This document shows, in pieces, positions 19,662 through 45,796 of a DNA stretch of 64,000 nt. Origin of the DNA: Methylococcales bacterium (GTDB lineage: Bacteria > Pseudomonadota > Gammaproteobacteria > Methylococcales > Methylomonadaceae); assembly GCA_026398895.1 (NCBI GenBank), contig JAPLRZ010000044.1, positions 1-64,000 of the forward strand, written 5' to 3'. Under the pieces are notes generated by a model. The model was given only the letters and a program-made list of their open reading frames with translations, ran no database searches and was not told the DNA's origin. Position 1 is the stretch's first letter, and each line of letters begins with the position of its first letter. A program made the translations under genes and the position numbers.

Positions 19662-19749
19662 GGTAGGGGTTCATAGATGAATCACTACAAATTAAATTGA
19701 GCATGACTGGCAGTCATTACTATCGCTATAACAGCTTTAACCCACTAGC
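19662..19749. repeat. MITE-like element A, overlapping the 3' end of the diguanylate cyclase gene
   Basis: The right terminus TAACAGCTTTAACCCACTA matches the terminal repeat of elements at 39150, 45332 and 60201. The left terminus GGTAGGGGTTCA is diverged. A short palindrome ATGACTGGCAGTCAT (19702-19716) is inside. The right end runs 24 bp into the adjacent coding sequence, so the last codons of that gene (reading ASGLKLL, stop) derive from the element. Confidence 0.7.
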
Positions 19750-22700
19750 AGAAAAATGAGAAAAACAACCTCGTCCATTATCTTTGGCTTGATAAAGCGC
19801 GGTGTCTGCATGATCCATGAGTTTTTCAGATGTGCTGCCATGTTGTGGATAAATGCTAATGCCAATACTCGCGCCAATTTGTACGCATTCAGTTTCAGAT
19901 AATTGAAACGGCACGGTTAAATCGGCTATTACTTTTAACGCCACTGTTTCAGCAGCTTCGGGGATTTTCAGGTTTTCTAACACGAGGACAAATTCATCAC
20001 CGCCTAAACGTGCCACCATATCACTAGCGCGTAAACAGCCAGTAATTCTTTGGGCAACTTGTTTGAGTAACTCATCGCCAGCGGCGTGTCCTAGCTTATC
20101 ATTCACTGCTTTGAATTTATCCAAATCCATCATGAATACCGCGAATTGGCTATTCGCCCGCTGATTAAGCGCGATTGAATATTCCAATCTGTCCAACAAT
20201 TTCCGCCGATTGGGTAGACCTGTGAGCGGGTCAAAAAAAGCTAATTGTTGAATTTCCTCTTCGGCGGCTTTACGCTCGGTAATATCGGTCAGCGTTGCGA
20301 CATAATGGGTAATCACGTCATCGTTATTTGACTTCACTACTGTAATGGTTAGCCATTCGGGATATATTTCGCCATTTTTACGCCGACTCCATAGCTCACC
20401 TTGCCACGCCCCCTTGTCCTTAATACTTTGCCAGAGTGCTACATAAAATGCTTTATCCTGTTTTCCTGATTTCAATAAACGCGGATTTTTTCCAATGACT
20501 TCAGCTTCGCTATAGCCTGTTATTTGCGTAAAAGCATGATTAACTTTAATAATTACATTATTGGCATCGGTGATTAACATACCTTCTTGTGCTTCAAATA
20601 CCGTGGCAGCAATGCGTAATTGCACCTCTGCCAGTGTACGATCAGTAATATCATGAACAATACTAAATAATAGCGGATGACCGCTATTTTCAATCGGCGT
20701 TGAATGAACTTCCACGGCGCGGATTTCACCTGAGGCTAGGCGATGACGAAAATTAAAATGGGTGAGTGTCTCTTGCAAAGCCAGTCGTTTTTCTTCAGCG
20801 ATGGTCAAAGGTGATAGGGTGTTAATGTCACTAATATTCATGCAAATTAATTGCGCAACCGTATAGCCGTAATAATCAGCCGCCGCCTTGTTAGCATCCT
20901 CAATTCGCCCAGATTGAGGTTCAATGAGCATCATCACTGAGGAGTTATGCTCAAAAAAGTGCCGAAAGCGTTGCTCACTGGCGCGTAATTTCTCCGTTGC
21001 TAGACTTTTTTCAATGGCAATGCTGACAAAATTTGCCGATTGCTCGATGAGCTGAATGTCATCATCGCTGGGTGTATGATTGCTAGGGTGATAAATAGCA
21101 AAAGTACCTAGCACTTGCGCTGAAGCTGAACGAATAGGTTGCGACCAGCACGCGCCCAAGCCAGCACGCGCTGCTAAGTCTTTATAAGGAGTCCAGTAAG
21201 GATGCGTCTGTATATCTTCAACGATGACGCGCTCATTAATAAACGCGGCTGTTCCACAAGAACCTACTCCTACGCCAATCTCAACACCATTAATGGCGTT
21301 ATTATAAAAATCAGGCAGACTAGGTGCTGCACCATTTAAAAGATGCTTGCCCTCGTTATCGAGTAATAAAATACTACACATCATCTCAGAATTGAGCTGC
21401 TCCACACCCAGAACAATAGTTTCAAAAATCCGCGCTAGTGGTTCGTTGCCTGCTAGTAGTTCCAGTGTGACATTGCGAAATTGATTGTGTTTTTCAGCTC
21501 GTTTTCGCTCTGTGATGTCGGTATGTGTACCAATCATGCGTAGGGGTTTACCCTCTTCGCTATGACTGACGATCATGCCACGCCCAAGAATCCATTTATA
21601 ACTTTCATCCTTGCAGCGCAAGCGATATTCAACGATATAAATTTTCGTCTTGCCTTGCAAATAAGCCTGCATTGTTTCTGTAACATAGGCTTTATCGTCT
21701 GGATGAATACGCGTTACCCATTCATTATTCGATGGCAGAATGTCATTTTCGCTATAGCCCAGCATCTCTTTCCAGAGTTTGGAATACAAAACTTCATTGG
21801 TTTGAATGTCCCAATCCCATACACCATCGCCTGAGCCTTCGATGGCAAATTTCCAACGAAATTCACTATCACGCAACGCTTCTTCAGCTTGTTTGCGTGC
21901 AGTAATATCGAGTTTTACCCCGACATAATGAGTTATAACACCCGATAAATCCTTTACGGGTGCAATATGTACATCTTCCCAATAAAAATGCCCATCTTTG
22001 TGGCGATTAATGAATTCTCCCTGCCAAACTTTACCGTGCGCGAGACCGTCCCATAACTGCTTATAAACTGCCTTTGGCGTTAAACCCGATTGCAGTAAGC
22101 GTGGATTTTGTCCTATTGCCTCTTCAGCACTGTAGCCTGTGACCTCGGTAAATTTAGGATTTACATAAAGCAAATCACCCTTTAAATCAGAAATCATTAT
22201 TGAAGTAGGACTTTGTTCAATCGCGACCGACAAAATACGCAAACGCTCTTCTGTGCGTTTACGCTCGGTGATTTCTTGGCTAAACGCTAACTGAACACGG
22301 TCACCATTTTCCAATTTGAGGGGAACAGCATGAGTCGCCATCCAGTGTTTTACCCCTTTCAAGTCGAAAACTTCAAATTCCATAGTGCCAGATTTTCCGT
22401 CACAGATGTCCTCATTAAACGCTTGAAAGGTGGCACGGTATTCAGGAGCGATGATTGAATAGATGGAGCTATTGCATACCTCATCCTCAGAGCCAGCTTC
22501 TATTATTGCAAGCCCTGCTGGATTCATTGATAGCAGTGTTCCGTCACGCGCTACCAATTTCACACATTCAGGAGCTGCTTCAAGAATCGCTCGCAAGTGG
22601 CGTTCTCTTTGGGAAAGTTGTTTTGTAGCCTGCTTGCGTTCAATATGATGACGATAAAAAATCAGCAACAGAATGAACAGAAACACAATAATAATGCGCG

Positions 22701-24390
22701 TGAGATATTTTATGACTAAGGGCAGTAATTGCTTTTCTTCATAAACACCAAACCATTTTTCATGCAATTTATCGTAAGTGCCATTGGCTTTGACAATTGC
22801 CAATCCTTCGTTGATTTTAGCTAATAATTCAGTATCACCTTTATGCACCGCAAAGGAAAGTTTTAGCGATAGATTAAGGTCTATCGGTAGCGTTTTAATG
22901 TTGCTGATGTTCAATTTTTCCAGCGTTTGCTTGCCTACAATATTACTCACCAGCATTGCATCATAGTGACCATCGGCTAATAACCGTAAACCCGCTTCGA
23001 CGCTATCAACCGCTAGTGTTTGTTTGTCCAAGCCTTTTTCTTGTAGGTATTCCAGTGCAAAATCACCCTCGACGACAATAAACCGCTTATTGTTGAAATC
23101 AGTTTCCGAGTGAATAGACTTTTCATCGTCACGCACAAAAATAGCCTCATTAACAATGACGTGCGGCACAGTGAAATCAGCAAACTGGCGGCGTTCATCA
23201 GAGAGTGCCAAATTAATCAGCACGTCGATTTTCTCCGCTTTAAACTCTTCTAACACGTCATGAAACGGCAACACCCGAATCGTTGAGTTTAAATGTGCCT
23301 CTGCTGCCACCGCCCTCCATAATTCCACGGTAAAACCATCAGCCGTGGCATCGGTTTTCCCTAAGGCAAAGGGCGGATAATCTTGCTCGCTACCAACAAT
23401 GAGCAGTTTATCACTATGATCAAAGGGGTTGATGAATTGAGCTAACCTTCTTTCAGACAACGGCTTAGACAATTTGAGTTGCGCATACACATCTGCGACT
23501 TTGCGCATCCTCTCTGCATTTATCTGCCCCAGAGGTATAACATCGGGCAGAATCAATTTGCGCGTAACCTCTGCTTCAAAGTGCAAATGCGCAAGACTAA
23601 GTCTACTGTGATAGCTTTTATGAATTAATTGGATTAATTCTTCAGGGTGGTCTAGTGCGTATTGCCAGCCTTTTAAGGATGCACGGCGAAATTTTTCTGC
23701 TCGCCCCTGATGTTGGGTTAATTCATGCTGACTGGTGAATAACAGATCACCATAAAAATCAATGCCATAATTTTGCGGATTGATGATATTAATGTTAACT
23801 TTTTTTTGCTGAAAATAAAAAATTGCGTCCGATAAATACCCCGACATGACATCAATTTTACCGTCAATCAAATCATCATTTCTGAAACTCTGCTTAACGG
23901 TAGTATAGTTTTTTTCGGTTAAATGCGCTTCCGTTAGCATCGCTTGCAAGACGGAATCATCCACGCCCATTGAATCAAACATAATCCGTTTGCCTGACAT
24001 TTCATAAGGGCTAATAATGCCAGAACTTTGTTTAGCAATAAAAACCAAGGGGTTATGTTGAAAAATTGCGGCTAACGCGACAATCGGTTCACCGCGTGCA
24101 TAATAAGACAGAATGCCAGAATCACCGACTCCAAAATCCTTATCACCTGAGACCACTTGTTCAATGAAATTTTTATCGAGTGAACGCTCGAAAATGGTGA
24201 CATCCAGCCCTTCTGCGGCGTAATAGCCTTGTTCTTTTGCTGCGTAATAGCCTGCAAATTGAAATTGGTGTAGCCATTTTAATTGCAAGCTTACTTTTTC
24301 TAAGGGCGGTGAGTTTTGTTGGGGCGCGGGAAAAGCAATGCTTGAGTTGAGCAAGAACAGACAAACCAGAAGATGTAGACTTGTTTTCAT
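19726..24390 (-). CDS. Diguanylate cyclase with two periplasmic-binding domains, five PAS and one GAF
   Basis: This 1554-residue membrane receptor should make cyclic di-GMP. The start is the ATG at 24390 because a signal peptide follows it directly. Domain order: NMT1/THI5-like binding domain (about 35-320, LKWLHQFQFAGYYAAKEQGY); SBP_bac_3 domain (330-560, GSEQDYPPFALG); one membrane helix (about 570-590); then PAS, PAS, PAS, GAF (about 985-1140), PAS, PAS in the cytoplasm; and a C-terminal GGDEF domain (FDPLTGLPNRRKL, LGGDEF). RASD lies exactly five residues before GGDEF, the product-binding inhibitory I-site. No EAL domain is seen. The twin sensors resemble thiamine-precursor and amino-acid binding folds; the ligands are unknown. 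The last seven residues and the stop come from an inserted repeat element. Confidence 0.93.
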   Translation of the reverse strand: MKTSLHLLVCLFLLNSSIAFPAPQQNSPPLEKVSLQLKWLHQFQFAGYYAAKEQGYYAAEGLDVTIFERSLDKNFIEQVVSGDKDFGVGDSGILSYYARGEPIVALAAIFQHNPLVFIAKQSSGIISPYEMSGKRIMFDSMGVDDSVLQAMLTEAHLTEKNYTTVKQSFRNDDLIDGKIDVMSGYLSDAIFYFQQKKVNINIINPQNYGIDFYGDLLFTSQHELTQHQGRAEKFRRASLKGWQYALDHPEELIQLIHKSYHSRLSLAHLHFEAEVTRKLILPDVIPLGQINAERMRKVADVYAQLKLSKPLSERRLAQFINPFDHSDKLLIVGSEQDYPPFALGKTDATADGFTVELWRAVAAEAHLNSTIRVLPFHDVLEEFKAEKIDVLINLALSDERRQFADFTVPHVIVNEAIFVRDDEKSIHSETDFNNKRFIVVEGDFALEYLQEKGLDKQTLAVDSVEAGLRLLADGHYDAMLVSNIVGKQTLEKLNISNIKTLPIDLNLSLKLSFAVHKGDTELLAKINEGLAIVKANGTYDKLHEKWFGVYEEKQLLPLVIKYLTRIIIVFLFILLLIFYRHHIERKQATKQLSQRERHLRAILEAAPECVKLVARDGTLLSMNPAGLAIIEAGSEDEVCNSSIYSIIAPEYRATFQAFNEDICDGKSGTMEFEVFDLKGVKHWMATHAVPLKLENGDRVQLAFSQEITERKRTEERLRILSVAIEQSPTSIMISDLKGDLLYVNPKFTEVTGYSAEEAIGQNPRLLQSGLTPKAVYKQLWDGLAHGKVWQGEFINRHKDGHFYWEDVHIAPVKDLSGVITHYVGVKLDITARKQAEEALRDSEFRWKFAIEGSGDGVWDWDIQTNEVLYSKLWKEMLGYSENDILPSNNEWVTRIHPDDKAYVTETMQAYLQGKTKIYIVEYRLRCKDESYKWILGRGMIVSHSEEGKPLRMIGTHTDITERKRAEKHNQFRNVTLELLAGNEPLARIFETIVLGVEQLNSEMMCSILLLDNEGKHLLNGAAPSLPDFYNNAINGVEIGVGVGSCGTAAFINERVIVEDIQTHPYWTPYKDLAARAGLGACWSQPIRSASAQVLGTFAIYHPSNHTPSDDDIQLIEQSANFVSIAIEKSLATEKLRASEQRFRHFFEHNSSVMMLIEPQSGRIEDANKAAADYYGYTVAQLICMNISDINTLSPLTIAEEKRLALQETLTHFNFRHRLASGEIRAVEVHSTPIENSGHPLLFSIVHDITDRTLAEVQLRIAATVFEAQEGMLITDANNVIIKVNHAFTQITGYSEAEVIGKNPRLLKSGKQDKAFYVALWQSIKDKGAWQGELWSRRKNGEIYPEWLTITVVKSNNDDVITHYVATLTDITERKAAEEEIQQLAFFDPLTGLPNRRKLLDRLEYSIALNQRANSQFAVFMMDLDKFKAVNDKLGHAAGDELLKQVAQRITGCLRASDMVARLGGDEFVLVLENLKIPEAAETVALKVIADLTVPFQLSETECVQIGASIGISIYPQHGSTSEKLMDHADTALYQAKDNGRGCFSHFSASGLKLL

Positions 24391-24439
24391 ATTCTCTGAA
24401 GGATTTATGCAATAGCTCGTCATAGGTTTATTGACTATT

Positions 24440-39335: not shown

Positions 39336-39391
39336 ACTCCAGTATTCTATAAGCTCAGATTTCAAGCAATTTTCACCAAGAGGCGTTGTTT

Positions 39392-42300
39392 ATGTCCACA
39401 CTACCCAAATTACCGTCTTATATACTCAGCGAAAAACTTGGTGAAAGTTTGCAAACACTGGTTTATAAAGGCTACGCAAAAAAACAGCCTAACACGCCGT
39501 TGGTGTTGAAATTACTTAAATTATTATCCTGTTGGGACGATCAATCACAGCAGTTACGCCAGAAAATAGAACGGCTAAAAGTGCTACATGATTCGCGTGC
39601 TTGTACGCCACTGGCATTGGAAATCAGTGGTGAGATGCAATTTATTGTCCAGCCTTGGTTCGCAGGGCAGTCGTTGAATGTGTGGGCGGCGCAACAACAG
39701 ACGGTATCATTAAAGGATTTTTTTACGATTGCTTGCACACTGACGGATATTTTACAGGCTGTACATGAAGCGGGTATTACCCACGGTGGAATTAAACCGC
39801 ACAATATTTTGGTGCAGTCTGGCACACTGATTTTATGCTTAACTGATTTCATCACACCGTTGGATATTCGTGATGTCAGTCATTTTATTTATGATCCTGA
39901 ATTTGTCCGTGGCACGTTGGCGTATACGTCGCCTGAACAAACAGGGCGTATCAATTATCGAGTGGATTTTTCCACTGATTTGTATTCCTTGGGCATTGTG
40001 TTTTATGAATTACTGACAGGGCAGTTACCGTTTTTTTCCACTGATCCGCTGGAATTAATTCATTCACATTTGGCAGAAGAAGCTCCGAAAGTGCATGAAA
40101 TCAATCCCGTTATTCCTGAACAACTGAGCGATATTATCGTTAAGCTGGTGTTAAAGCAGCCTGAAAAACGTTATCAAAGTGCGGCGGGCTTGTTAGCCGA
40201 TTTATTACGTTGCCGTGATGATTACGCAGCCACAGGGATAGTGAGCAAGTTCCCCGTTGGTTTACGAGACAAAACCAAGCGCATGATTTTTATTTCCAAA
40301 ATGGTGGGGCGTTATGGCGAAGCGGAGTTAATTCAGCGTGAATATGAGAGAGTGATGTCGGGTGAATTTCGCTCAGTATTTATTTCAGGCTTGTCGGGAA
40401 TAGGCAAAACGCGGTTAATTCAGGAATTACAAAAACCCTTGGTACGCAATCGCGGTTATTTCACGTCAGGTAAATTTGATCAATATCAAAAAAATATTCC
40501 CTACAGCTCGTTGATTCAAGCCTTGCGACATTTAATGCGTACATTTTTAACAGAAAGTGATGCCCAAGTTGCAAACTGGCAACATAAAATTCTCGCCGTG
40601 GTAGGCAATGACGGCAGTGTGATTACTGATGTTGTTCATGAGCTGGAATTTATCATTGGGAAACAAGCTGAAGCTGCCCATTTGCCGCCTGTTGAAGCAC
40701 GAAATCGTTTTAATAATTTATTCGGTCGTTTTCTATCTTGTCTTGCCAATGCTGAGCATCCATTAGTCTTGTTTATTGATGATTTGCAATGGTGCGATAG
40801 TGCGACCTTTGATTTTTTACAAAACTGCTTTTTCAATCCACAAGAGCATCCTTACTTATTTTTTATGGGTGCCTATCGCCATAATGAAGTCGATACTGCC
40901 CATCCGCTGACCAAATTGATACGCAGCATTCAAGACCATGATGGCGCGTTACAAGCGATTCGTTTGGAGGCTTTGAATGCAGAGGATTGTCATGAGATGG
41001 TGGCGTATATTCTGGATTCATCATTGGAATCCACTCTTAATCTTGCGCAATTTATTACTCATTTGACCGAAGGAAATCCGTTGTTTGTTAGTGAAAGTTT
41101 AGCGTGGTTGTATAACGAAGATTTGCTTTATACCGACAGCGAACAGCACTGGCATTGGGATATGGCGAAAATTCGCAATGCCCAAATGCCGACTACCGTG
41201 GTGGAATTATTCAGCTCCAAAGTGCGTAAATTATCGCCCACCACCTTGCATATTCTTAATCACTGCGCCTGTATGGGGAATCGCTTTACCGCAGAAGAGG
41301 TGGGTTTAGTTATTGACATGGGTGTGGAGCAGTTATTTGAAAATTTAAAACAAGTGTTAAGCCTTGGAATGCTGTTAGAAAACAAAGCTGATTTGCAGTT
41401 TGTTCACGACCGCGTACAGGAAGCGGTATTGCGGCAAGTTGATGAGCGTGAACGCTTGGCGATACATTGGAGTATTGGTAATCGCCTGTTTAACGCTATA
41501 AAAATCCCTCCCTTTGAAAAACAGGGGTTAGGGGCGATTTTAGAAGCCCAAGAAAATTTATTTACTATCGCTGCCCATCTTAACAAAGGGCATCCTGAGG
41601 AGTTGGATGATGCCACGCGCTACCGTCTGGTAACGATTAATTTTCACGCAGGCAACAAAGCCTTGGATGCTTTAGCCAGTCAGGCGGCGAATGAGTTTTT
41701 TCGCAATGCACATGATTATTTGCCCGACGATTGTTGGGAGTCTGCCTATCAACTGACGTTTCGCATTTATCAGCGACTGGCAAAAACCGATTTAATGTGC
41801 GAGCGTTATGAGGAGTCGGAAACGTTGCTGAATACACTCATCGATCACACCGTCAGTGATTTTGATAAAGCCGAAGCCTTAGCGGAACAAACCACCTCTT
41901 TGTCATCATTTGGTAATTTCAATCAAGCGATTATTACCGCTAACCGTGGTTTGGCGTATTTTGATAAAGCAATTCCCAAAGACCCCGAACAAGCACAGCA
42001 ACGAATGCAAACCTTGATGGCAGAGATTGCCGCGCAAGGCGATGTGTGGCAAACCATATTAACCATGCCATTTACGGATGAACGCAAAAGCAAAATTGAA
42101 TTGGCATTTTACAGCGAGTTAATTCCTGATCTATATATGTGTGGTTTAGTGTCGCAATTGTATTTATCAGCGGCGCAATCCACACAATTATGTTTAGCAG
42201 GGGGCATGGATGAATCGGTGATTTATTCGTTTTCCATCATGGGGCTGAACTTAGGCGAGCAAGAACAGTTTGAACTGGCGTTTCGTTATGAAGATTTAGC

Positions 42301-44536
42301 CCACGATTTATGCGCTAAGTATCCCAATACCTTTGGTGCGACACGCGGCATGAATGGCATTGTTTGGTGCAATATGCACTCGCGCTCTCATCCTGCTGAT
42401 ATTGTCGAGTATTGTTTGAAAGCCATACAGTGCGGTAAAAACTGCGGCGATTTGTATAACGCGGGGCTGTCTTATGGCCCTTTGATGTGGAATTTACAGG
42501 TGCAGGGGAAAAATTTACAGCACATCGAAGAAATCGCCGAAGAGTGTTTGCTGTTTTCGCGTAAAAACCAATTATTTTTTTCGGTGGGCTTAGCAGAAGC
42601 GGTATTAGCGGGTTGGGTTGCGCCGATGAAAGCCGATTATGTGCCTGTGGCAATGGATGAAACACTCGCCCGCTGGACGGAAAACAATTATGTCGCGGCA
42701 TCGGGTAGTTATTTTGTATTGCTTGCCATTAGTCAGTATTACCGTGCTGAATACGATGCGGCGGCAGACTCGCTGAAAGCGGTAGAAAATTATTTACATG
42801 GTTTAACGGATAATGTACTGAAACGGCTGTGGTTTGTGTTTCGCATTTTAAATCAGCTACGCACCACCCCACGCGGTCAGTGGCAACAGTGTGAAGCGGA
42901 GATTATCCCACTATTAAAAAAAATTGAACAATGGGCAAGTTTGGGCGTGTTGTTAACCCCCTATTTGAGCTTTATTTACGCAGAAATTGATCATTATAAA
43001 GATAATTCAATACACCATGCGATAAAGATAAGTCGTTATTTTTCTGCGATTACACAGGCGCAAGATCAAGGCTACACGCTACTGACTGGGCATCTCTACG
43101 AATGTCTTGGCGATTTACTGACGGAATCCAAGTTAGGCAAACCTGCGATGTATTATGCTGAAGCGTGGCGTTTGTACATCCTGTGTCAGGCTGATGCTAA
43201 ACTTGCGCGTTTGCAAGCGCGTTACGATAATAAAGTGACTGCTAGTCCTAAGTCTTCAACAACTACCAACACTACCAACGGCAACGAGTTATCCACTCTA
43301 CCCAATCTCGATGTTAATTATTTGATGAAATCCGCGCTGGCTTTGTCAGCGGAAACCGATGTAGAGCAGTTGTTACAAAAAATTATGACAGTGGTATTGG
43401 AATGTTCAGGAGCGCAACACGGTTATTTATTGATTAAAGAACAGAATGAGCTGATAGTGGCGGTAGAAAATCACATTGGCAAACAACCTGTTTTAAAACC
43501 GCGCCATTACAATATGAACCAAGCGACGGATATTTGCTCGTCTATTGTGAATTATGTGTTTCGTACTCAGGAAAAACTGGTGTTGCGTGATGCCTGTACT
43601 GAAGGTGATTTTCAGCAACTACTCGACGTACAAGCTATGGGTTTACGCTCTGTATTATGCCTACCTGTGATTAAGCAAAAACAGCTAATCGGGGTGTTAT
43701 ATTTAGAAAATCGCTTGTCCGTCGGTATTTTTACCCCAGAAAAAACGGGTATGACCGAATTATTGACCTCTCATGCCGCTATTTCTTTGGAAAATGCGCG
43801 TTTGCTGGAAGAAACCCGTCGCACTTATCAACAGTTGCAAGAAAGTCGAGAACACATGATGCAAATGGAAAAATTGTCTGCCTTAGGTACGCTGGTCGGC
43901 GGTGTCGCACACGAAATTAATAATCCACTGATGGGGGTGATGAATTTTGTGGAATTTGCCCAAGAAAAAACCACCGATGTCAAAATAGCCAAGGTATTAG
44001 GGCAGGCTCTGCATGAAATTGAACGTATTAAAAATATTGTCCGCAATATGCTGATTTATGTGCGCACTAAATCAAATCCTACTGAGTCTTGCTACATTAG
44101 CGAAACTATTAATCAAACCTTGTTGTTATTGGAAGGTGAACTCAAAAAAACCAATATACGAATACAGCTTGATGTTGCTGAACAGTTGCCCGCTATACGG
44201 TTCAGTACAGATAGTTTGCAACAAGTGTTAATTAATTTATTGCTGAATGCCCGCGACGCGCTGAATGAAACGACTGAGCCGCGCATTGATATTACCGCCG
44301 TGGTTAACGGGGAATTTTTGGAGTTATCGATTTGCGACAATGGTTCTGGTATTCCAGAAGCGGTATTGACGCGTATTTTCGAGCCATTTTTTACCACTAA
44401 ACCCCCAGGTAAAGGCACAGGTTTAGGTTTATCGGTATCACACCGCCTTATCGAAGAAGCGGGAGGAAATATTAGCGTCTATAATAAATCTGGTTGTGGC
44501 TGCTGTATGACGTTACAATTCAAAAAAATCCATTAA
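39392..44536 (+). CDS. Giant sensor: Ser/Thr kinase-like, AAA ATPase, GAF and histidine kinase
   Basis: This 1714-residue protein starts at ATG 39392, with AGAGG upstream. Domains: protein-kinase fold (about 8-270); AAA_16 ATPase (about 295-600; Walker [13 protein letters not shown], Walker [13 protein letters not shown]); a long helical TPR-like segment (about 620-1290); GAF (about 1325-1475); HisKA ([20 protein letters not shown]) and HATPase_c ([26 protein letters not shown]). The kinase loop reads [10 protein letters not shown] (131-140) where active kinases have HRD; the catalytic Asp is Gly133, though K40 and D152 (of DFG) remain. The N-terminal kinase may therefore be a pseudokinase sensor. 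The His kinase motifs are intact. No transmembrane helix is seen, so it is cytoplasmic. The partner response regulator follows after 17 nt. Confidence 0.95.
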
Positions 44537-44553: not shown

Positions 44554-45255
44554 ATGCTACACAACACTATATTGGTAATTGATGATGACCCCGCAGTACG
44601 CGGCGCATTCAATTTAATACTTGAAGATGCGGGTTATGAAGTGCGTGAAGCTTCGGGTGGCGCACAAGGCATTGAGATGGTAAAAGAGCAACGTCCTGAT
44701 TTGATTTTTCTCGATCTGCGTATGCCAGATATGGATGGCGTTGAGACTTTGCGGCGGTTAAAAACCATTGATGACAGTATCATTGTTTACATTGTTACCG
44801 CCTTTGCCGAAGAGTATATGGATCAACTCAAAGTGGCGCATAGCGAAGGGCTACAGTTTCAAATCGCTAGCAAGCCATTATCAGCGACACAAATTAGGCA
44901 TATTGCTAGATCTAGTATCGATGAAGCACCGATCGAAATAGCGAAAGAGCATCCGCACAAATTGATATTAACCTTATATGTTGTTTTACTGAACGATGAA
45001 TTTAAGAAATATATTGAACGACTCAGTAGCGCGTTGAATGTCAGCTACGCGCCTGAAGATTGGAAGTTAAATGTTATTGAGGTGCTATATATGCCAGAGA
45101 AAGCCTTGGCTAATAACGTATTTGCTACACCTATGCTGGTACGCGAGATACCCATACCTGTACTGCATGTGCTGGGCGATTTATCGAGAATGCCCTCTAT
45201 CATCGCAGCGATTACCTCACAATACAGTGATGGCTCTAATACCATTGTGATGTAG
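44554..45255 (+). CDS. Response regulator with C-terminal KaiB-like domain
   Basis: This 233-residue protein starts at ATG 44554, 17 nt after the sensor gene (the longer frame back to 44494 overlaps that gene and has no site). Residues 1-125 are a receiver domain: acidic pocket D10-D12, phosphoacceptor D54 in LIFLDLRMPDMDG, T82 and K107 (ASKPLS). Residues 136-233 match KaiB: LILTLYVV at the start, NVIEVLYMPEKALANNVFAT with the ATP-x-L turn, and IPVLHVLGDLS, the family hallmark G-D-L-S. KaiB is a fold-switching thioredoxin-like clock protein; the SasA sensor domain shares the fold. No kaiC is present in the window. It probably receives phosphate from the adjacent kinase and signals through the KaiB-like part. 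Confidence 0.92.
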   Translation: MLHNTILVIDDDPAVRGAFNLILEDAGYEVREASGGAQGIEMVKEQRPDLIFLDLRMPDMDGVETLRRLKTIDDSIIVYIVTAFAEEYMDQLKVAHSEGLQFQIASKPLSATQIRHIARSSIDEAPIEIAKEHPHKLILTLYVVLLNDEFKKYIERLSSALNVSYAPEDWKLNVIEVLYMPEKALANNVFATPMLVREIPIPVLHVLGDLSRMPSIIAAITSQYSDGSNTIVM

Positions 45256-45331
45256 AAAACGCTTTATAAATCGAATTCCATTCTGTCCGAAGACCTCTGA
45301 GAATCTCCAACTTATACTCGATACAATTACT

Positions 45332-45433
45332 GGTAGTGGGTTAAATCTGTTATAGCGATATTGATGACTGCCAGTCCTTTAAAGGACTGGCGGTCATATC
45401 CAAAAGTAAAAACAACAGATTTAACCCACTACC
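45332..45433. repeat. MITE-like element C with perfect 20-bp terminal inverted repeats
   Basis: GGTAGTGGGTTAAATCTGTT at the left is exactly mirrored by AACAGATTTAACCCACTACC at the right, 102 bp in all. The centre is the dispersed palindrome ATGACTGCCAGTCCTTT/AAAGGACTGGCGGTCAT (45363-45396). It has no coding capacity. It is the best-preserved member of the family seen in this window and thus a good query for finding others. Confidence 0.9.
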
Positions 45434-45477
45434 CGTTAACTCGCTGGCATTAAGTTAATAAAATATCTTTATTTATA

Positions 45478-45603
45478 AATCCCCCTCTGCCCCTCGCTTC
45501 GCTCCCCCCATTTTTCAAAGGGGGAGGTTTTGCTCCCCCCTTTCTTTGAAAAAGGGGGAAGGTTTTATTCCCCCCCTTTGAAAAAGGGGGGTTAGGGGGG
45601 ATT
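45478..45603. repeat. CCCCCT/AGGGGG inverted repeat array
   Basis: This is a run of alternating pyrimidine-rich and purine-rich blocks: AATCCCCCTCTGCCCC, then TTTTTCAAAGGGGGAGG, CTCCCCCCTTTCTTTG, AAAAAGGGGGAAGG, CCCCCCCTTTG, and AAAAAGGGGGGTTAGGGGGG. These can fold into several alternative hairpins. Similar repeats are scattered through many environmental bacterial genomes. It lies between the KaiB-regulator and phosphatase genes, and may end transcription from both sides. Confidence 0.75.
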
Positions 45604-45741
45604 CAAGCGGCAGTGTCCCGTTATAGCTATAGTCGATAAATTAGGCGGATACTGTCTGCCTACACCGACACAGTTGTGTTATTTTTAGACAATGTAACAA
45701 AACTGTAATAAAAACCGCCACTAAGCAACGATATACACCAC

Positions 45742-45786
45742 TTATCCACACAGTTATCCACAAAAATTGTGTATAACTGTGTATAA
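45742..45786. promoter_or_regulatory. Cluster of four perfect DnaA boxes
   Basis: TTATCCACA occurs at 45742-45750 and 45754-45762; TGTGTATAA, the inverse of TTATACACA, occurs at 45768-45776 and 45778-45786. All four fit the DnaA box TTATNCACA, in two converging pairs within 45 bp. The stretch just left (45610-45740) is moderately AT-rich. There is no dnaA, dnaN, gidA or rpmH nearby, so a replication origin is not claimed. A DnaA-titrating site or DnaA control of the phosphatase gene 10 bp away is possible. The inverted arrangement can also form a hairpin. Confidence 0.7.
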
Positions 45787-45796
45787 GATAGTGTAT

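Follow-up and report, generated by a model that had tools for sequence, protein, structure and literature searches.

Among clock proteins, KaiB is the textbook example of metamorphism, and it is usually understood by way of KaiC alone. In the window analyzed here, a 64,000-nucleotide stretch of contig JAPLRZ010000044.1 from a Methylococcales bacterium close to Crenothrix sp. D3, a KaiB domain forms the C-terminal part of a response regulator (RR-KaiB). This raises the question of what a KaiB does when it is attached to a receiver and KaiC is missing. The locus is composed of the following features:

39386..44536, + strand: presumed cognate sensor kinase, 1716 aa, with STK, AAA_16, a TPR-like region, GAF, HisKA, and HATPase (Pfam)
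44554..45255, + strand: RR-KaiB, 233 aa, a response regulator with KaiB as its C-terminal domain
44554..44919, + strand: receiver domain, residues 1-122 (Pfam PF00072, 3.9e-25), with phospho-acceptor D54 and invariant residues
44950..45252, + strand: KaiB domain, residues 133-233, with the motif MPEKAL..NVFATPMLVRE.P.PVL..LGDLS
45281..45330, + strand: remnant, ~50 bp, of the 5' end of a third gene (PAS-A effector), found by tblastn and blastn and reading ENLQLILDTIT

The RR-KaiB frame begins with the ATG at 44554 and ends with the stop codon at 45253-45255, as an earlier sequence-only reading of this DNA had proposed. That reading also described the product as a response regulator fused to a KaiB-like domain, lying beside a giant kinase and with no kaiC nearby. 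Pfam and profile matches bear out the fusion, with D54 intact in the receiver, and the kinase is real, with all of the domains listed above. The absence of kaiC extends to the whole window genome, where the candidates for KaiC were set aside as RadA/RecA/DnaB-like partial matches. The operon's third gene and its remnant (45281-45330) had been missed. The Pfam match of the receiver covers residues 6-116 (3.9e-25), and D54, the acidic pocket D10/D11/D12, T82, and K107 are all present and are invariant or nearly so in an alignment of 30 relatives. The longest almost invariant stretch of RR-KaiB, P181-R197, lies inside the KaiB domain. The gene is under purifying selection, with an omega of 0.37 (0.23-0.64) against its closest relative.

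The match of the C-terminal domain to KaiB is marginal for the single window sequence and firm for the family. Residues 161-211 match the Pfam KaiB family (PF07689) at 27.5 bits, narrowly above the cut-off of 27. All 32 relatives score 29 to 43 bits with the same family, with E-values mostly of 1e-7 to 1e-10. Compared to PDB chains by phmmer, the window domain matches KaiB along its full length (7.6e-8), and a profile of 27 RR-KaiB sequences finds KaiB at 2e-12. The N-terminal domain of SasA is not among the PDB matches of this profile at E<=1. A SasA-like identity was rejected because the profile lists KaiBs and the domain is C-terminal to the receiver. RR-KaiB falls short of the clock-KaiB equivalogs, with 30.7 bits against 110 for NF006798 and 27.9 bits against 145.3 for TIGR02654; a free KaiB from a methanotroph scores 110.5 in the clock-KaiB equivalog comparison. 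In a tree with 38 other KaiBs, the RR-KaiBs form one clade with 100/100 support.

A GTDB scan identified RR-KaiB in 32 further genomes. Nearly all belong to methanotrophic Methylococcales, including Methylobacter, Methylomonas, Methylomicrobium, Methylocaldum, Crenothrix, and others. The remaining genomes are Comamonadaceae, unplaced proteobacterial MAGs, and one Thiotrichales MAG. The operon order in these 32 genomes is kinase, RR-KaiB, and third gene. The Thiotrichales MAG (L062) has a split version composed of HK, RR, KaiB, and GGDEF-EAL, where the receiver and KaiB are two adjacent genes. Though KaiB, receivers, and kaiBC-effector clusters are each known, an operon with a KaiC-less, receiver-fused KaiB is absent from the open-access papers searched, and no description of the receiver-KaiB fusion was found in that literature (subscription journals and preprints were outside the scope).

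The stop codon of the kinase is 17 bp upstream of RR-KaiB, and the linkage of the pair, which the sequence-only reading had made a condition of its proposal, is kept in relatives: a histidine kinase of the same family lies directly upstream in 31 of the 32 loci. The H-box of the adjoining kinase is likewise intact in 31 of 32. The histidine kinase part is related across loci (41-95% identity), and the input modules vary, being of the giant, CHASE3, PAS-PAS, or HAMP type. The upstream kinases of L037, L039, L059, and L060 are 342-576 aa long with CHASE3, PAS-PAS, or no recognized sensor, and that of L062 is 503 aa with HAMP; all five are without STK or AAA domains. In the window, the kinase has an open reading frame, intact key residues, and an omega of 0.11 against its closest relative. 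In the window and in every relative with a readable motif, the Ser/Thr domain of the giant kinase carries HGG for HRD and DFI for DFG, and it thus looks like a conserved pseudokinase. In L025 (508-8599), a giant kinase that is 54% identical and has the same HGG motif is divergent to a free kaiB and a PAS-HK-receiver gene. This arrangement is possibly a link between kaiBC-type and RR-KaiB-type systems.

KaiC was found in six of the 32 RR-KaiB genomes, and all six carry a separate free KaiB beside RR-KaiB. It was not found in the other 26. Since many of the genomes are MAGs or incomplete drafts, a single absence of KaiC or of the third gene may reflect a gap. KaiC-free genomes that are complete or nearly so include Methylomonas sp. 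LW13 (L055/G085) and G033 (100% complete, 4 contigs). The flanks of every RR-KaiB locus are free of kaiC. In a class-wide sample of 369 genomes, kaiC is within the same ~3-kb locus for 22 of 25 free KaiB genes. Behind the ordinary kaiC-kaiB clusters that the same bacteria carry lie effectors of the kinds seen with RR-KaiB, including PAS-A-like domains. The effector types behind proteobacterial kaiC-kaiB clusters have been described earlier (PMC3164672). In L030 (4938-5474), a 178-aa frame begins as KaiC (residues 3-121) and ends as the C-terminal portion of a KaiB, probably through an internal deletion of a kaiC-kaiB pair.

The third gene always starts with a PAS domain of ~108 residues, termed PAS-A, and ends in GGDEF-EAL or HK-receiver. 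The architectures are PAS-PAS-GGDEF-EAL or PAS-PAS-HK-receiver. PAS-A is 50-69% identical between the two kinds, but their second PAS domains and their outputs show no relationship; outputs have thus been swapped behind a constant PAS-A. In KaiB-containing genomes, 8 of 12 PAS-A profile matches outside the RR-KaiB operons are no more than 2.5 kb from kaiB. PAS-A was rejected as an exclusive marker of KaiB because 7 of the 13 strongest matches in the 369 genomes sit away from KaiB. In a mirror-tree comparison, the divergence of PAS-A is a slightly closer match to that of KaiB (partial r 0.49) than to that of the receiver (0.31), values that are confounded by shared phylogeny. In genome G379 (L151:6018-8168), a receiver of the RR-KaiB type with Gly for the phospho-Asp is followed directly by a PAS-A-GGDEF-EAL gene, and no KaiB was found in that genome.

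The window lineage has lost the effector gene by deletion and keeps a remnant of it. The start codon of the remnant is eroded and the reading then breaks off. Translated third genes of relatives match 45281-45330 by tblastn, all ending at the same point, and the remnant is 88.7% identical to L034 over 53 bp (blastn, E=3.8e-13). The L034 copy is itself truncated; it still reads MSEDIFENLQLIPDTITDGVVVSSS and ends after that. An intact third gene and PAS-A are absent from both the window genome and this nearest relative (G004/L034). The gap behind the deleted gene (45256-45796) contains G and C runs in palindromic repeats. Relaxed selection on RR-KaiB after the loss was considered, as an omega of 0.37 looked high, but a pair that bears the third gene gives 0.31 and the idea was dropped. 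Because of the deletion, RR-KaiB in this lineage would have to act on another target or be on its way out. A 1565-aa NMT1/SBP-PAS-GAF-PAS-GGDEF protein without PAS-A is encoded at 19726-24423 (- strand), and its PAS-GGDEF end shares ~50% identity with the corresponding end of the lost third gene. It is a possible substitute target.

The reading preferred here, held at a probability of about one half, is a KaiC-independent KaiB that a histidine kinase controls through D54 and that serves as a protein-binding output for a PAS-A effector. The sensor histidine kinase, which in methanotrophs is the giant STK-AAA-GAF-HK protein, would phosphorylate the receiver at D54; we infer this phosphotransfer from the operon linkage and the intact residues. 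The phosphorylated receiver would then free or reposition the attached KaiB domain. As the putative output, this domain, probably in a thioredoxin-like (fold-switched-like) state, would dock on the N-terminal PAS-A of the effector, the product of the next gene in the operon. Docking would control this effector, which is either a GGDEF-EAL enzyme for c-di-GMP or a hybrid histidine kinase. The operon resembles a proteobacterial kaiC-kaiB-effector cluster with a histidine kinase-receiver pair in the place of KaiC. The broader view, that a kinase-receiver pair replaced the KaiC oscillator as the controller of KaiB and that KaiB binds the PAS-A of c-di-GMP or kinase effectors, is put forward tentatively, at somewhat less than even odds. 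Against docking on PAS-A, the domain also occurs away from KaiB and, in G379, behind a lone receiver, and the PAS-A gene is gone from the window genome and from that of its nearest relative, although RR-KaiB persists there under purifying selection. The weakest step of the mechanism is whether KaiB or the receiver is the partner of PAS-A. CikA contacts KaiB through its pseudo-receiver. In clock output, it is KaiC-bound, fold-switched KaiB that engages CikA (PMC6378743), and a contact between receiver and KaiB has a precedent there.

The receiver could be the real output, with the phosphorylated receiver docking on the third protein or exchanging phosphate with it and KaiB serving only for dimerization or stability. 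This is conceivable but doubtful. PAS-A could have the receiver, not KaiB, as its partner, since in G379 it follows a lone receiver, and in many loci the third gene encodes a hybrid HK-receiver that may belong to a phosphorelay. However, the G379 receiver lacks the phospho-Asp, and the longest almost invariant stretch of RR-KaiB is in the KaiB domain. In addition, KaiB is kept as a separate gene in L062, PAS-A adjoins kaiB without such a receiver in kaiBC clusters, and PAS-A divergence is nearer to KaiB than to the receiver, though with the phylogenetic confounding noted above. Far less probable is the partner that the sequence-only reading had suggested, a KaiC-like or AAA protein, notably the AAA segment of the adjacent kinase, bound perhaps as feedback. 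In clocks, KaiB does bind the RecA-fold CI ring of KaiC, and the AAA_16 of the giant methanotroph kinase is intact (Walker A GLSGIGKT). AAA_16 belongs to the STAND type and differs from the RecA fold of KaiC. The five loci with short kinases (L037, L039, L059, L060, and L062) keep RR-KaiB or KaiB beside a kinase without any AAA domain, so the kinase AAA was rejected on comparative grounds as an obligatory partner. As a general partner, KaiC is excluded by its absence from 26 of the 32 genomes. All 31 RR-KaiBs have an acidic residue or Asn at position 58, where none of 37 free KaiBs has an acidic one; this indicates that the surface has diverged. Of the earlier interpretation, the linkage to the kinase and a KaiB output attached to a receiver in the absence of kaiC are supported; the binding to the kinase's AAA domain is not.

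The same reading had raised a fold switch upon phosphorylation, in which the unphosphorylated receiver would hold KaiB in its ground state and phosphorylation would release the thioredoxin-like fold. The predicted structures appear to be related to KaiB, as had been expected, and would point to KaiB rather than to one particular state. A full-length AlphaFold2 model has a good receiver and a KaiB part of low confidence with thioredoxin-like element order. The model of the isolated domain has ground-state element order (mean pLDDT 73), and its best PDB matches by Foldseek are all ground-state KaiB crystals (2qke, 1vgl, 1wwj, and 1r5p; TM about 0.6, E about 1e-4). The disagreement would suit a switch, but in the C-terminal half, which is decisive here, confidence is low in both models, and AlphaFold2 outcomes on KaiB vary with alignment depth and memorized structures (PMC10808063, PMC12288660). 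The models were set aside as evidence for switching because two weak models give two topologies. Cyanobacterial KaiB that carries the exchanges G89A/D91R is locked in its switched fold (PMC6378743). In KaiB numbering, which is that of the T. elongatus sequence (its relevant part agrees with PDB chains) and was transferred to positions 89 and 91 by a gapless alignment, the 31 RR-KaiBs have 27 Ala at 89 and 28 Thr at 91, and never Gly or Asp. The KaiB of L062 has Ala and Arg, as in the engineered mutant. Among free KaiBs, Gly89 is found in 22 of 37 and Asp91 in 19 of 37, and some that lie beside KaiC are also without them. With the Gly89/Asp91 pair missing, a permanently thioredoxin-like fold is no less likely than a switch, and the residues hint that the RR-KaiB domain may be held in it. 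The substitutions at 58, 89, and 91 argue against a fold that switches reversibly and against KaiC CI as a binding partner, and the phosphorylation-driven switch is regarded as quite improbable. It is also unlikely, if a little less so, that the pair in the window species is what remains of a decaying operon and has no current function. The third gene is deleted, its remnant is eroded, and the gene is absent elsewhere in the genome. Against decay, RR-KaiB and the kinase are open, with key residues intact and omegas of 0.37 and 0.11, and the closest relative on which these values are based has also lost most of the third gene.

Clock KaiB of the KaiABC oscillator (S. elongatus and T. elongatus) belongs to the same domain family, and the ATP.L and GDLS motifs and prolines 63, 70, and 72 are kept in RR-KaiB. 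Unlike clock KaiB, RR-KaiB is fused to a receiver, mostly occurs without KaiC, scores 30.7 vs 110 bits, lacks Gly89/Asp91, and has an acidic residue or Asn at 58. SasA likewise places a KaiB-like domain, at its N-terminus, in a two-component protein; there it is the sensor of a kinase, whereas in RR-KaiB the domain sits as the output of a regulator and its profile is that of KaiB. Legionella pneumophila KaiB (Lpp1115, PDB 4kun) and cyanobacterial KaiB-4 are non-clock or N-terminally extended KaiBs that have been seen fold-switched (PMC10808063). Their sequence similarity to RR-KaiB is weak (1.1e-6 and 1.3e-7), and no receiver fusion is reported there. KaiA3 of Synechocystis also carries a receiver on a Kai domain, but its C-terminus is KaiA-like (PMC11372060) and its partners are KaiB3-KaiC3, while RR-KaiB is mostly without KaiC. 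Proteobacterial kaiC-kaiB clusters with a downstream HK or GGDEF/EAL gene have the same kinds of effector behind kaiB (PMC3164672); the RR-KaiB operon has a histidine kinase and receiver instead of KaiC.

If true, KaiB-PAS docking would be an undescribed output mechanism of proteobacterial kai clusters, and RR-KaiB bears on how the signal leaves the many uncharacterized kaiBC clusters outside of cyanobacteria. A monophyletic, KaiC-free KaiB subfamily that is wired to a receiver and has a constant PAS neighbor offers a direct route to KaiB roles beyond KaiC binding. With natural Ala/Thr, and once Ala/Arg, at the fold-switch positions, the family is also a natural test set for KaiB metamorphism. 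Culturable methanotrophs, among them Methylomonas sp. LW13, make the family accessible to experiment. One locus, L040 (7608-9045), carries two tandem RR-KaiB genes between the kinase and the GGDEF-EAL gene, and no other fused member of the family is as divergent as the second of these.
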